This document shows, piece after piece, positions 7,854 through 35,679 of a stretch of 64,000 nt of DNA. The position numbers and the translations under genes were made by a program. The notes under the pieces were generated by a model. It was given only the letters and a program-made list of their open reading frames with translations. It ran no database searches and was not told the DNA's origin. Location: contig NZ_AP018828.1 in assembly GCF_003966695.1 (NCBI RefSeq), positions 588,001 through 652,000 of the forward strand. Reading direction: 5' to 3'. The first letter of the stretch is position 1. Each line of letters opens with the position of its first letter. Source of the stretch: Asticcacaulis excentricus. GTDB lineage: Bacteria > Pseudomonadota > Alphaproteobacteria > Caulobacterales > Caulobacteraceae.

Positions 7854-9136
7854 TGAAGGGGCTGTTGTCGCTGTTTTCTTTCTCCGCGTGGGAAACCGAT
7901 CTGGCGCTCAGATATCTGCGCACCAAGCGCAAGGACGGCGGCATCGCCCTCATCGCCATCATCAGCTTTATCGGCATCACGCTGGCCGTGGGCGTGCTGA
8001 TCACCGTCATGTCGGTGATGAACGGCTTTCGCGACGAGTTGATGTCGCGCGTGCTGGCCTTTAATGGCCATCAGTTTGTGGCCGGTGAACCCCTGACAGA
8101 CTGGAACGGCCGCGACGCCATGCTTAAGCGTCTGCGCGCCATTCCGGGCGTCATCGAAGCTTCGCCCTACGTGGAATCGCCGGGTCTGGCGCAAGGGCCG
8201 TTTTCGCAGGCGGGTCTGGCCTATATGCGCGGCGTCGATGTGGCCGCATTGAAAAACACACCGATCATCCGCGACAATATCAAGTCCGGCTCGCTGGATG
8301 GATTTGGCGTGGGCGAATATGGCGGTGACGTTATTCTCATCGGGGAAGGTCTGGCCAGCCAGATGAATGTCCGCGTCGGGGACGAACTGACGCTGTTGTC
8401 GCCATCGGGCAGCACCGCCTTCGGGGCCATGCCGCGCCGTAAGCCCTATGTGGTGGGCGGCATCTTCAAAAGCGGTGTGTCGGAGCTGGACGCGGCCTTT
8501 GTTTTCATGCCGTTACCGCAGGCGCAACTCTTCTTCGACCGCGAAGACGAGTGGGACGCCGTCGAAATCAAGGTGAAAGACCCCTACAATATCAAAGACT
8601 ACTACCCGGCTTTTCGCAAGGCCGCGGGGGATAAGGCTGTTCTGCTCGACTGGACGCAGCGCAATGCGCCCTTGTGGAACGCGCTTCAGGTCGAACGCAA
8701 CGTGATGCGCCTGATCCTGATGCTGATCGTGCTGATTGCCGCCATGAACATTATTTCCGGCATCGTCATGCTGGTGAAGAACAAGACGCGCGATATCGCC
8801 ATCATGCGCACCTTAGGCGCGGATCGTACGTCGATTACCAAGATATTCTTCCTGTCGGGGGCTATTATCGGGGCCACCGGCACGGTGCTGGGCGTCGCCA
8901 TCGGCACTCTGTTCTGCATCTTTATCCGGCCGATTCAGCAGATCGTCGAAGCCCTCTTCAATGTGAAGGTCTTCAATGAACAGGTCTATTACCTGGCCTA
9001 TATACCGGCCAAGGTCGAACCGACCGAAGTGTTGATTATCGTTGGCTTTTCGATGATCGCCACCTGCGTGGCCACCCTGTTCCCGGCCCTGTGGGCGTCC
9101 AAGCTCGAACCCGTGGAGGCCCTGAGATATGAATAA
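7850..9136 (+). CDS. lolC: Lipoprotein-releasing ABC transporter permease (LolC/E)
   Basis: A 428-residue inner-membrane permease. It works with LolD to extract outer-membrane lipoproteins and pass them to LolA. The N-terminal [33 protein letters not shown] helix is typical, followed by a large periplasmic domain (about residues 55-270) and three C-terminal helices. The MRTLGAD loop near residue 320 contacts the ATPase. Only one permease gene is present, so a homodimer (LolF-like) is likely. Gene overlaps proS and lolD by 4 and 8 bp. Confidence 0.9.
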
Positions 9137-9842
9137 TGGGCTTATGAATGATGTGGTTCTGTCCCTGCGCGGCCTGGTGCGCGCCTATCCCATCGCCGAT
9201 GGTCGCACGCTGGACGTGCTCAAAGGCGTCGATCTCGACCTGCGCGCCGGTGAGGTGGTCGGGCTGATCGGGCCCTCCGGCTCCGGTAAGTCGTCGCTGT
9301 TGCATTGTATCGGTTTGCTGGAATCCTCCGAAGAGGCGCAACTGACCATCGACGGCGAAGACTTTACCCGCGCCAGCGAGGCCGCCCGGACCCGCGCGCG
9401 CCTGCACAAGATCGGCTTTGTCTATCAGTTCCATCACCTGCTGCCGGAATTTACGGCCCTGGGCAATGTCGCCCTGCCGCAGCGCGTGCTGGGTCTGCCG
9501 CTCAAACAGGCGGAAACGCGGGCGAGGGGGCTTCTGGAGCAGTTGGGGCTCGGCGAACGCCTTGATCACCAGCCGGCGCAACTGTCGGGTGGTGAGCAAC
9601 AGCGCGTGGCCATTGCGCGCGCTCTGGTCAATGGTCCGCGCCTGCTGCTGGCCGATGAGCCGACGGGCAATCTCGATCCCCAGACCTCTCAACAGGTATT
9701 CAACGCCCTGAGGACGATCGTCAAGGCGCAGGGGGTCGCGGCCTTGATTGCCACCCACAATCTGGAACTGGCCGGGCATATGGACCGCGTGGTCAGCCTC
9801 AAAGACGGCCGTCTGGTGGAAACCGTTCCAGGAAGCCTGTAA
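9129..9842 (+). CDS. lolD: Lipoprotein-releasing ABC transporter ATPase LolD
   Basis: A 237-residue ATPase subunit that powers lipoprotein release. Walker A is GPSGSGKSS, the Q-loop is [18 protein letters not shown] (the LolD/MacB-type LLPEFTA stretch), the signature is [15 protein letters not shown], Walker B is [12 protein letters not shown], and the switch histidine is in IATHN. The start at 9129 (MNNGLMND) overlaps the permease gene. A second ATG five codons on is also possible. Confidence 0.95.
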
Positions 9843-9902
9843 AATTATATCGTTTTAAATCAACAACATACATGATTTGTTCACGCTGTTGATAAAAGGG
9901 TG

Positions 9903-9943
9903 TTGACGGGGAACAAAATAAGAATGTAGAACAAAGCATGAAT
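9903..9943 (+). promoter_or_regulatory. Promoter with SOS-like operator half-sites
   Basis: TTGACG (9903-9908) and TAGAAC (9927-9932) form a plausible promoter with an 18-bp spacer. Overlapping it are two GAAC-N7-GAAT units (9911-9925 and 9929-9943), 18 bp apart. The alphaproteobacterial LexA box is GAAC-N7-GAAC, so each unit differs by one base; the spacing fits but the match is imperfect. The two exact boxes near lexA in this window make LexA control plausible. Confidence 0.45.
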
Positions 9944-9972
9944 TGATCATCTGTTCTTTCAGGGGACAAACC

Positions 9973-10059
9973 ATGCTGGCTATCCATAACGTATTGTCTT
10001 TCGCCGCCGTTGCCGCTTTTGTGGCGCTTGTCTGTCAGGCGGCTATGCTGATCGGGTGA
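9973..10059 (+). CDS. 28-residue hydrophobic microprotein (SidA-like candidate)
   Basis: A 28-codon frame starting MLAIHNVLSFAAV and ending CQAAMLIG, almost entirely one hydrophobic helix. A purine-rich AGGGGAC lies 5 nt before the ATG, and the promoter with SOS-like half-sites is 30-70 bp upstream. In Caulobacter, SidA is a 29-residue inner-membrane peptide under LexA control that blocks division through FtsW/FtsN; from memory its gene lies beside dnaE. Size, membrane character, promoter and position fit, but I cannot confirm sequence similarity, so the name is not assigned. A plain leader peptide or chance frame remains possible. Confidence 0.45.
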   Translation: MLAIHNVLSFAAVAAFVALVCQAAMLIG

Positions 10060-10107
10060 ATCGTCCGACAGTAGCCGCCCTGTGAACCGTACGGAGAGGC
10101 TTTTGAG

Positions 10108-13100
10108 ATGAGCGACGGTTTTGTCCATCTGCGGGTACGATCGGCCTATTCCCTTCTGGAAGGTGCGATCAAGGCCTATGATATGGGCAAGCTGGCGGCC
10201 AAAGCAAAGATGCCGGCCATCGCCATCTGCGACCGCGGTAACCTGTTTGGCGCGCTCGAGTTTTCTCAGGTGTGCAAGGATACGGGCGTGCAGCCCATTA
10301 TCGCCTGCGCCCTGCCGGTCAAGGGTATAGGCGGTGCCCTCAACGACCGCTGGGCGAAGATACCGACCATTGTCCTGATCGTTCAGAACGAGCAGGGCTA
10401 TCTCAACCTCACAGAGCTGTCGTCTAAAGCCTATCTCGATATTGAGGCGACGGACGAGCCGCATGTCTTGTGGGAAGAGGTGGTCAAACGCGCCGAGGGC
10501 CTGATCCTGCTCTCGGGTGGTCCCGACGGTCCGATCAACCCGCTGTTCAGGCAAAATCAACCCGACGAAGCCAATGCCGCACTAAAAGACATGCACGCGG
10601 CCTTCGGGGACCGCTTCTATATCGAGCTTCAGCGGCACGACGGGTCGCCGCACGGCGGTATCCGCGGCGATTCGGCGGAAAGCGGTCTGGTGCAATTCGC
10701 CTATGCGCATGACGTGCCGCTGGTGGCGACCAATGACGCCTATTTTGCCGACCGTGACATGTTCAAGGCGCATGAGGCGCTGCTGTGTATTTCCGACAGC
10801 ACCTTTATGGGCGTGGCCGATCGGCGCAAGGTGACCAAGGATCACTGGCTGAAGCCGCCGCTGCTGATGCGCGAGGTGTTTTCGGACCTGCCCGAAGCCT
10901 GTGACAATACGCTGGAAATCGCGCGCCGCTGCGCTTTTCTGGTTAGTAAGCGCGATCCGATTTTGCCGCGCTTCGATACCGGCGCCGGGCGCTCGGAAGA
11001 CGAAGAACTGGCCTTTCAGGCGCGCGAAGGCCTGAAAATGCGTCTGCAACAGGTCGAGCCGGCCTTCCCCGAAGAGGAATACTGGGCCCGTCTCGACCGG
11101 GAGGTGGGCGTCATCCAGAAGATGGGCTTCCCCGGTTACTTCCTGATCGTTTCGGACTTCATTAAATGGGCCAAGGCGCACGACATCCCCGTCGGGCCGG
11201 GCCGGGGGTCGGGGGCCGGTTCGCTGGTTGCGTGGGCACTGACCATCACCGACCTTGATCCGCTGCGCTTTGGTCTGCTGTTCGAACGCTTCCTCAATCC
11301 GGAGCGGGTCTCCATGCCCGACTTCGATATCGACTTCTGTCAGGAACGCCGCGAAGAAGTCATTACCTACGTTCAGGAAAAATACGGCCGCGAGCGGGTG
11401 GCACAGATCATCACCTTCGGTACGCTTCAGGCGCGCGCCGTGCTGCGTGATACCGGACGGGTGATGCAGTTGCCGCTGGGGCAGGTGGACCGTCTGTGCA
11501 AGATGGTGCCGAACAACCCGGCCAACCCGACCACCCTGGCTCAGGCCGTCGAAATCGAACCTCGCCTGCGCGAAGCCCGCGACGAGGAAGAGTCCGTTGC
11601 CAAGCTGCTGGATACAGCACTGAAACTCGAAGGCCTGTATCGCAACGCCTCGACCCACGCCGCGGGCATAGTGATCGGCGACCGGCCGCTGACCGAACTG
11701 GTGCCGCTATATCGCGATCCGCGCTCCGACATTCCGGCGACGCAGTTCAATATGAAATGGGTTGAAAGCGCCGGTCTGGTCAAGTTCGACTTTCTGGGTC
11801 TGAAAACGCTGACCACGCTGAACCGCGCCTGGCACTATCTGAAAAAGCGCGGGCTGGAGGTCGATTTCTCCACCCTGCCGCTGGATGACAAGACCACCTA
11901 TGAGTTGCTGGCGTCGGGTCAGTCGATCGGCGTGTTCCAGCTTGAAAGTCAGGGGATGCGCGACACCCTGCGCAAGATGCGCTGCGGCTCCATCGAGGAA
12001 ATCACCGCGCTGATTTCGCTCTATCGTCCGGGTCCGATGGACAATATCGACACCTATGTCGATCGGAAGTTCGGGCGCGCCGAAATCGACATGCTCCATC
12101 CCTCTCTGGAGCCGGTTCTGCGGGAAACCTACGGCGTCATCATCTATCAGGAACAGGTGATGCAGATCGCCCAGATCCTTTCAGGTTATAGCCTCGGCGA
12201 AGCCGACCTGTTGCGCCGGGCCATGGGTAAAAAGAAGAAAGAGGAAATGGACTTGCAAAAAGCAAGATTTATTTCCGGTGCCAAGGAGAAGGGGGTTCCC
12301 GAAAAGCAGTCGGACTCGATCTTCGAACTGGTGAACAAGTTTGCCGGCTACGGCTTCAACAAATCACACGCCGCCGCCTATGCCTTTATTTCGTACCAGA
12401 CGGGCTGGCTGAAGGCCAATCATCCGGTCGAATTCTTCGCCGCCAACATGAGCCTCGATATTACCAATACCGACAAGCTGGCGGTATTTTATCAGGATGC
12501 GCGGCAGTTCGGGGTGACCATTCGACCACCCGATATCAACCGCTCCAAGGCGGATTTCGACGTAGAAAATGGTGAAGTGCTGTACGCGCTTGGGGCCATC
12601 CGCAACGTCGGTCTCGAAGCCATGCACAGCGTTGTGGCGGTGCGCGAGGCGGGCGGACCGTTCAAGGATATTTTCGACTTCCTCGAACGCATCGACCCCA
12701 AGGCGGTCAACAAGCGCGCCATTGAAAATCTGGCGCGGGCCGGGGCTTTTGACTCGATCCACCCCAACCGGGCGCAGATCATCCAGAGCGCCGATCTGCT
12801 GATCGCCCACGCTCAGAGCATGGCCGCCGAGCGCGCCTCGGCGCAGGTCAGCCTGTTCGGCACCAATGATTCGTCGCGCCCGCGCCTGCCCAATATTCCC
12901 AGGGCCTCCGGGCCGGATGCGCTGGACGAAGAACTATCCGCCGTCGGCTTCTATCTGTCCGGGCACCCGTTGCAAGACATGGTTGATGTGTTCAAGCGCC
13001 GCAATGTGACCCTGTACGCCGAAGCGCTGGCGCTCGCTCAGGAAGGGCGCGAAGCCTTCCGCATGGCGGGGGTGGTGCGCCGTCGTCAGGAACGCGCCTC

Positions 13101-13536
13101 GGCCCGCACCGGGGAAAAATTCGCCTTCGTCAACCTCTCAGACCCCAGCGGCGAATATGAGGTGATGTTCCAACCGGAAGCCCTGCGTAAATACCGTGAG
13201 CATCTGGAACCCGGTCAGTCGATCCTGCTCAAGGTGCGCTGCAAGGGCTCGGACGGCGAAGTGCGTATGTTTGGCGAGTCCGCCGAACCTATGGCCGGAG
13301 CCCTGAAAACGGACGATATGGGTTTGCGCCTGACCGTATCCCCGCGCGGCTTTGATGTGGATGCTTTTAAAATGCAATTGGATGCCGCGCGCGGGCAGGG
13401 CGGCGAAATCACGCTCCTTAGCGAGATCGACGGACATGAGGTCGAACTGAAAATGCCGCACCGCTATCGTCTGGACGCCAGCCTGCGCGGTGCCTTGAAG
13501 ACGATGAATGGCGTCCTATATTGTGAAGACGTATAG
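10108..13536 (+). CDS. dnaE: DNA polymerase III alpha subunit (DnaE1)
   Basis: A 1142-residue replicative polymerase. It has an N-terminal PHP domain ([18 protein letters not shown]), polymerase blocks with [16 protein letters not shown] and the catalytic aspartates in [15 protein letters not shown] (near residue 408). Later come the [10 protein letters not shown] and [20 protein letters not shown] blocks, a helix-hairpin-helix region and a C-terminal OB domain. In the PHP motif an arginine replaces the second histidine of the usual HxH pair, so the PHP site is probably not active and proofreading would fall to a separate DnaQ. It starts 48 bp after the microprotein stop and may share its promoter. 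Confidence 0.97.
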
Positions 13537-34871: not shown

Positions 34872-35579
34872 TTAATGATACCGGCGCATCAGACCGACCA
34901 GCTTGCCCTGAACGGCCACTTCGTCAGCATTGTAGATTCGGGTCTTGTAGGCCGGGTTGGCCGCCTCAAGGGCAATCGAGGCCCCTTTTTTGCGGAGGCG
35001 TTTCAAGGTGGCGGTGTCGCCATCGACCAGCGCCACGACGATTTCGCCCGACTGCGCCGAGTCCGACTTCTTGATAATCACATAATCGCCGTCAAGAATA
35101 CCGGCATTGATCATCGAATCACCTTCGATTTCCAACAGATAGTGCTCGCCCGAGCCGACGAAGATTTCAGGCACGCGGATACGGTCGCGTTCGGCCCCCA
35201 GCGCTTCGATGGGGACACCCGCCGCAATCTTGCCCAGCAGAGGCAGTTCGCGGCCTTCGTCATTGGCGGGTTTGGACGCCGGGGCCGGGGCAGTGGGGCG
35301 CGTACCCTCGACCACCTGCGGCACAAAGGCCTGACGACCACGCGGCGGAGCGGCGGTCGTGGCCTGATCCGGCAGCTTGATGACTTCCAGAGCGCGGGCC
35401 CGGTGCGCAAGGCGGCGGATGAAGCCGCGTTCTTCAAGGGCGGTAATCAGTCGATGAATCCCCGACTTCGACGCCAGATCCAGCGCCTCCTTCATCTCAT
35501 CAAAGGACGGAGACACCCCCGTTTCCTTGATGCGTTCATGAATGAACATCAGAAGTTCGCGTTGTTTGGTCGTCAGCAT
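34872..35579 (-). CDS. lexA: SOS repressor LexA
   Basis: A 235-residue repressor. The winged-helix DNA-binding domain is at residues 1-65 ([32 protein letters not shown]). A linker leads to the self-cleavage Ala-Gly bond in [11 protein letters not shown], the catalytic serine in [10 protein letters not shown] and the lysine in [10 protein letters not shown]. RecA-stimulated autocleavage induces the SOS genes. Two exact alphaproteobacterial LexA boxes lie 60-100 bp upstream, so it is autoregulated. Confidence 0.97.
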
Positions 35580-35638: not shown

Positions 35639-35679
35639 GAACAAGTCATGAACTTGTGCAAAGTGTTCTGTATGCGTTC
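35639..35679. promoter_or_regulatory. Two LexA operator boxes
   Basis: GAAC-N7-GAAC at 35639-35653 and GTTC-N7-GTTC at 35665-35679, both exact matches to the alphaproteobacterial SOS box (direct repeat of GTTC with a 7-nt gap). They lie in the 110-bp gap between trpC and lexA, placed for lexA autoregulation. Confidence 0.85.

Follow-up and report, generated by a model that had tools for sequence, protein, structure and literature searches.

The window, that is the whole stretch of 64,000 nucleotides analysed here (C2:588001-652000 of a genome of 3.79 Mb in 3 contigs), carries a short open reading frame directly upstream of dnaE, preceded by a promoter region with two LexA-type boxes (Table 1). 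By dnaE similarity, the closest named relatives of the window among the best 80 of at least 593 stretches belong to Asticcacaulis, with A. currens at 99%. The genes 5' of the frame were read by eye and are presumably proS, lolC and lolD. The frame itself comprises 28 codons and can be read directly from an ATG at 9973 to a stop codon at 10057-10059. The encoded peptide, MLAIHNVLSFAAVAAFVALVCQAAMLIG, is of the size and type of SidA (about 29 residues, one hydrophobic helix), with 28 residues and one hydrophobic stretch; the best 17-residue hydropathy mean, obtained for the identical peptide of two relatives (L002 and L003), is 2.4. A longer version of the frame with a TTG start at 9943 (38 residues) was set aside, because the ATG at 9973 has a ribosome-binding site and agrees with the starts in relatives. 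The earlier note had described a short frame with a ribosome-binding site before dnaE, and two GAAC-N7-GAAT units that overlap its promoter; all of these elements are in place. A scan of the gap between the frame and dnaE (10060-10107) revealed no terminator-like site, the only one nearby (10008-10026) lying inside the frame; induction of the frame in an SOS response may therefore also raise the dnaE transcript.

Table 1 Features of the locus and of the lexA region in the window.
Feature	Position	Strand	Basis or remark
lolD-type ABC ATPase, upstream neighbour	9129..9842	+	named by eye
-35 hexamer TTGACG	9903..9908	+	sequence
LexA-type box 1 GAACAAAATAAGAAT	9911..9925	+	fills the -35/-10 spacer; last T can be the first base of the -10
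-10 region TGTAGAAC	9925..9932	+	putative hexamer TGTAGA at 16-bp or TAGAAC at 18-bp spacing
LexA-type box 2 GAACAAAGCATGAAT	9929..9943	+	first GAAC inside the -10 region
ribosome-binding site AGGGGA	9961..9966	+	by eye, plausible
sidA orthologue (very probable), 28 aa, MLAIHNVLSFAAVAAFVALVCQAAMLIG	9973..10059	+	conservation, profile A3, NF033228 below cut-off, pN/pS
dnaE	10108..13536	+	same strand, starts 48 bp 3' of the sidA frame
lexA, presumed repressor of the sidA promoter	34872..35579	-	TIGR00498 176.8 bits, above cut-off
two GAAC-N7-GAAC boxes	35639-35653, 35665-35679	+, -	about 60 bp 5' of lexA, 11 bp apart

Conservation of the frame upstream of dnaE

A like hydrophobic frame of 28-31 codons was present 5' of dnaE in 80/80 loci kept, with profile scores of 21.4-55.9 bits. 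These loci are the best by dnaE similarity of at least 593 confirmed stretches and are mostly titled Asticcacaulis, Caulobacter, Brevundimonas or Phenylobacterium, along with some metagenome-assembled genomes (MAGs) under broader or odd titles (L016 and L032 are one MAG). The profile used for scoring was seeded from some of the same 80 loci, the starts of three frames were corrected by eye, and scans without the seed already recovered such frames in most of the 80. The frame was also found in 25/25 Asticcacaulis genomes, followed in each by the N-terminus of dnaE. A search of relatives for the frame, proposed as a check by the earlier note, thus turned it up at all 80 loci kept and in all 25 genus genomes.

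In order to judge whether the frame is coding, substitutions were compared among 10 Asticcacaulis sequences, some of them identical. Pooled pN/pS was 0.40 in the sidA frame vs 1.13 and 1.50 in the other two frames, and variability was highest at the third codon position (0.47 vs 0.30 and 0.15). This pattern indicates that the frame is under purifying selection, and we regard it as a real gene because it is conserved before dnaE in all 80 loci, shows this selection and follows a double box that occurs once in the genome. It is hardly credible that a chance hydrophobic frame lies here beside LexA boxes serving dnaE alone; hydrophobic frames of small size are frequent and a single box is found as often as chance predicts, but the conservation at 80/80 loci, the selection pattern and the match to a profile built without the genus (below) all speak against chance. 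Lying 48 bp 5' of dnaE in the same orientation, with no terminator-like site in between, the frame could also be read as a leader peptide through which dnaE expression is adjusted at the level of transcription or translation, and not as a free-standing protein. We consider this very improbable, as the stop codon and the dnaE match lie anywhere from 21 to 440 bp apart across the loci, selection acts on the amino acids, the related peptides of other genera are scored as SidA, and the frame has a promoter and operators of its own.

Relationship to SidA and distribution in the family

As checkpoint proteins go, SidA is very small. In C. crescentus, it is described as an inner-membrane protein of 29 residues with LexA-controlled induction that interacts with FtsW and FtsN (PMC4211646). 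The SidA model NF033228 was the only NCBIfam model matching the window peptide at E <= 1 (E 0.0017, 18.3 bits), a score that misses the curated cut-off of 35 bits. Scored singly against this model, 7 Asticcacaulis peptides reached 13.4-26.5 bits and the Brevundimonas-type peptide of L017 26.9 bits, all below the cut-off; it was passed by C. segnis (L043, 57.5 bits) and by a Caulobacter peptide (L040, 57.8 bits). In a genome-wide search with NF033228, the window frame was the sole match at E <= 1, with E 0.07, a result that proves nothing alone because the model also gives matches at that level in 7/14 controls, among them the genomes of E. coli and B. subtilis. A Pfam match of the peptide to PsaJ (E 0.034, 15 bits vs a cut-off of 22.4) was rejected as a chance likeness of short hydrophobic helices.

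Firmer than this genome-wide match are the tests with a profile from which the genus was excluded. Three profiles were used, namely A1 (37 of 81 SidA sequences, 8 of them of the genus), A2 (9 of 10 genus sequences) and A3 (19 of 71 others, none from Asticcacaulis). With A3, the sidA frame ranked first genome-wide (E 0.0045; next match 1.25) as well as within the window (E 3e-5; next match 0.8), and hhalign aligned A2 with A3 over the full length (97.5%, pairwise E 6e-12). The 28-residue frame is thus very probably a SidA orthologue; we place the orthology on these genus-excluding comparisons together with gene position, and do not claim the curated equivalog label of NF033228. We take sidA to lie beside dnaE also in C. 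crescentus, a neighbourhood that the earlier note had named; it is indeed seen in C. segnis, where the SidA frame of L043 lies 44 bp 5' of the dnaE match. The note's reading of the gene as a diverged SidA is borne out by homology, by the place before dnaE and by the SOS-type operator. Its remark that annotation usually overlooks such a gene on account of its length is borne out in part: an NCBI model for SidA exists, but the 7 Asticcacaulis peptides scored singly fall under the cut-off of that model.

Using profile A1, whose rows include the 8 Asticcacaulis sequences, we obtained matches at E <= 0.001 in 287/299 Caulobacteraceae genomes drawn, among them 25/25 of the genus, so SidA looks near-universal in the family. 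The remaining 12 genomes of the draw, in which A1 found nothing at this level, are G299, G309, G310, G314, G320, G328, G329, G333, G359, G362, G520 and G521, of which 7 fall among the 267 good-quality ones; these are possible losses of sidA or assembly gaps. Two genera, g65 and g66, gave no match in this draw. From the order, 299 genomes were drawn and 67 matched at E <= 0.01, 61 of them in the family; the 232 that gave no match are presumably all outside it. The 6 matches outside the family were weak (E 0.0035-0.0075) and 4 of them sit inside frames of 433-1000 residues, and SidA was thus not convincingly found outside the family in this draw of 299 order genomes. One genome (G017) has a second SidA-like frame (C3:315102-315185, E 3.9e-7) beside its strong copy, possibly a paralogue.

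LexA-type boxes and the promoter

Both boxes upstream of the frame differ in one base from the known LexA consensus GTTC-N7-GTTC (PMC12700426; a longer form is given in PMC13384398) in that they end in GAAT. A single GAAC-N7-GAAY box is nothing unusual in the window (5 observed vs 4.05 expected), and the exact GAAC-N7-GAAC form shows a modest excess in the genome, with 73 sites vs 50 for a reversed control, so that most of the 73 must be chance. The double unit, by comparison, occurs once in 3.79 Mb, and its reversed control pattern 0 times. Standard boxes also stand upstream of lexA (Table 1) and of recA, which has one GAAC-N7-GAAC at C2:322128-322142 (recA match from C2:322280); we take these as real because of their place, and the pair before lexA is likely a self-repression operator. 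A scan for E. coli-consensus promoters gave no site at the sidA promoter and only a weak one nearby, at 9817-9845.

Within the genus, units like box 1 and box 2, each ending in GAAT, are present in 25/25 genomes, and a third box follows 18-19 bp further on in 6/25. A third LexA-type box with about the same period as boxes 1 and 2 was likewise noted 5' of sidA in L006, L009, L203, L204, L206, L207, L218 and L219.

The spacing between box 1 and the -35 element was compared across the window and the 80 loci, 81 sequences in all, by searching for a TTG 5-13 bp before box 1 and taking the one nearest to 8. Such a TTG lies 7-12 bp 5' of the box in 78 of them; L014, L023 and L059 have no box pair with TTG and stand outside the spacing counts. 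With the TTG starting 7 bp 5' of the box, box 1 ends in C in 23/23 sequences; with a start 8-12 bp 5' of it, 49/55 end in T (4 C, 2 A). When Asticcacaulis and the records with Brevundimonas in their title are set aside, we count C in 6/6 at 7 bp and T in 37/41 at 8-12 bp; as Brevundimonas was assigned by record title, the Brevundimonas-like peptides L017, L021 and L047 count as others and make up 3 of these six, so that kinship is not removed from the C count. At a distance of 9 bp, a hexamer whose first base is the final one of box 1 (mostly TATAGA, TAAGAA or TAGGAA) stands at 17-bp spacing, and at 7 bp it is TAGAAC, two bases further on, that does so. In the window, the TTG starts 8 bp 5' of box 1, and TGTAGA is the hexamer. 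The two closest relatives (L002 and L003) have TATAGA where the window has TGTAGA (9925-9930), and this G for A may weaken the promoter in the strain.

Taken as a pattern of spacing and base, these counts suggest that the final base of box 1 is probably common to the operator and the -10, and box 1 ends in T and not in C probably because the same base begins the -10. The earlier note had called the boxes one base off the LexA box; this holds for both, which end in GAAT, and in the case of box 1 the overlap accounts in part for the deviation. Box 2 ends in GAAT in 10/10 Asticcacaulis sequences, 0/21 of Brevundimonas and 0/47 others, and promoter overlap does not account for this ending. Since operator and promoter have bases in common, the strength of the LexA site would be tied to that of the promoter.

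Proposed function and divergence in Asticcacaulis

Overproduction of C. crescentus SidA is reported to block division, and the model favoured by the authors is that SidA holds an FtsW/I/N complex inactive (PMC4211646); a lexA deletion leads to filaments because of sidA (PMC12700426). We hold with high confidence that the locus is the sidA of Asticcacaulis, the SOS-induced division inhibitor of the Caulobacteraceae. What we observe is the gene, its conservation and homology to SidA, its two boxes, and the presence of lexA and recA, both preceded by the standard box type; from C. crescentus we infer LexA binding, induction, membrane insertion, FtsW as target and the block of division. The predicted course is as follows. 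LexA would occupy the two end-to-end boxes over the sidA promoter, box 1 taking up the spacer between the two promoter hexamers and box 2 extending over the -10 and the start site. After DNA damage, RecA would trigger self-cleavage of LexA and the sidA promoter would open. The 28-residue, single-helix peptide would then enter the inner membrane and keep the FtsW/FtsI/FtsN complex inactive, so that cells elongate until repair is finished.

The Asticcacaulis gene is a diverged member of the known SidA kind. Like the Caulobacter protein (NF033228), it encodes a peptide of nearly the same length (28 vs 29 residues) with one hydrophobic stretch, alignable in full, and lies just before dnaE with paired LexA-type boxes over its promoter. 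Unlike it, the Asticcacaulis form scores under the curated cut-off and both of its boxes end in GAAT (25/25). It also lacks Arg, Lys, Asp and Glu and has a His near the N-terminus in 25/25 sequences of the genus (17 distinct), and replaces Trp19, which is retained in 5/25, by V, A, F or T in the other 20/25. Outside the genus, Trp19 is found in 70/71 loci and Arg6 in 69/71 (one row, L031, by eye), and both in 15/15 other-genus genomes, hand-picked from 8 genera; neither residue is present in the window peptide. Among other inhibitors, DidA of C. crescentus is likewise a small membrane protein acting on the same FtsW/I/N complex, but is reported to have 71 residues, to be SOS-independent, induced by DriD and not by LexA, and to bind FtsN (PMC4211646). 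YneA of Bacillus, SosA of Staphylococcus (PMC6851548) and SulA of E. coli are SOS-induced division inhibitors as well, and YneA is reported to interact with FtsW (PMC13396833); sulA homologues and yneA, though not SosA, are named alongside sidA as genes unrelated to it in a passage of PMC4211646. No description of an Asticcacaulis SidA or of the shared operator base was found in the titles and abstract openings searched, which covered few subscription papers.

In C. crescentus, the FtsW substitution A31K is described to suppress SidA but not DidA (PMC4211646). We compared FtsW of 24 Asticcacaulis and 15 other genomes, leaving out G390 with its single weaker FtsW-family match; the numbering was verified by A31, F145 and A246 in three other-genus FtsW of 390 residues with script-chosen starts. 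Position 31 is A, G or V in 15/15 other genomes and F, L, M or S in 24/24 Asticcacaulis, and the other two suppressor sites compared, F145 and A246, are invariant in all 24 + 15. Residues at position 31 vary in 9 FtsW of the order taken from outside the family (A 3, L 3, and I, T and V once each). This coincidence is weak, as residues are disjoint between the two groups in 38/390 columns, 5/21 of those taken as the first helix among them, and the changes in SidA and FtsW give no statistic because they split one branch from the rest and count as one event. A swap in size between SidA residue 19 and FtsW residue 31 was not seen within the genus, where Trp19 goes with Met31 in 4 genomes and with Phe31 in one. 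The residue changes are therefore suggestive, at most, of a rebuilt SidA-FtsW contact.

The same changes could mean that the Asticcacaulis homologue, although still induced in the SOS response, has lost its inhibition of division or has a different target in the divisome or the envelope, given the uncharged peptides, the rarity of Trp19 and an FtsW position 31 that is never Ala in the genus. We regard this as unlikely, since purifying selection, retention in 25/25 genomes and preservation of the double operator point to a function that is still maintained, and FtsW position 31 is just one of many group-disjoint columns. Under the preferred reading of a SidA that still inhibits division, it is conceivable, and we put it forward tentatively, that the protein has been re-tuned in Asticcacaulis into an uncharged, purely helical inhibitor with a rebuilt FtsW contact, with operator and promoter strengths tied to each other and dnaE possibly raised in the SOS response.

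For the annotation of the family, our results mean that genes of a kind apparently present in 287/299 of its genomes can fall below the cut-off of a curated model. The overlap with the -10 offers a reason for the T in place of C that is often seen in one LexA half-site at this promoter. A SidA without a charged N-terminus and mostly without Trp19, yet kept in 25/25 genomes of the genus, shows which residues are free to vary, and SidA and FtsW of the two lineages are a ready pair for mapping their contact by swaps.
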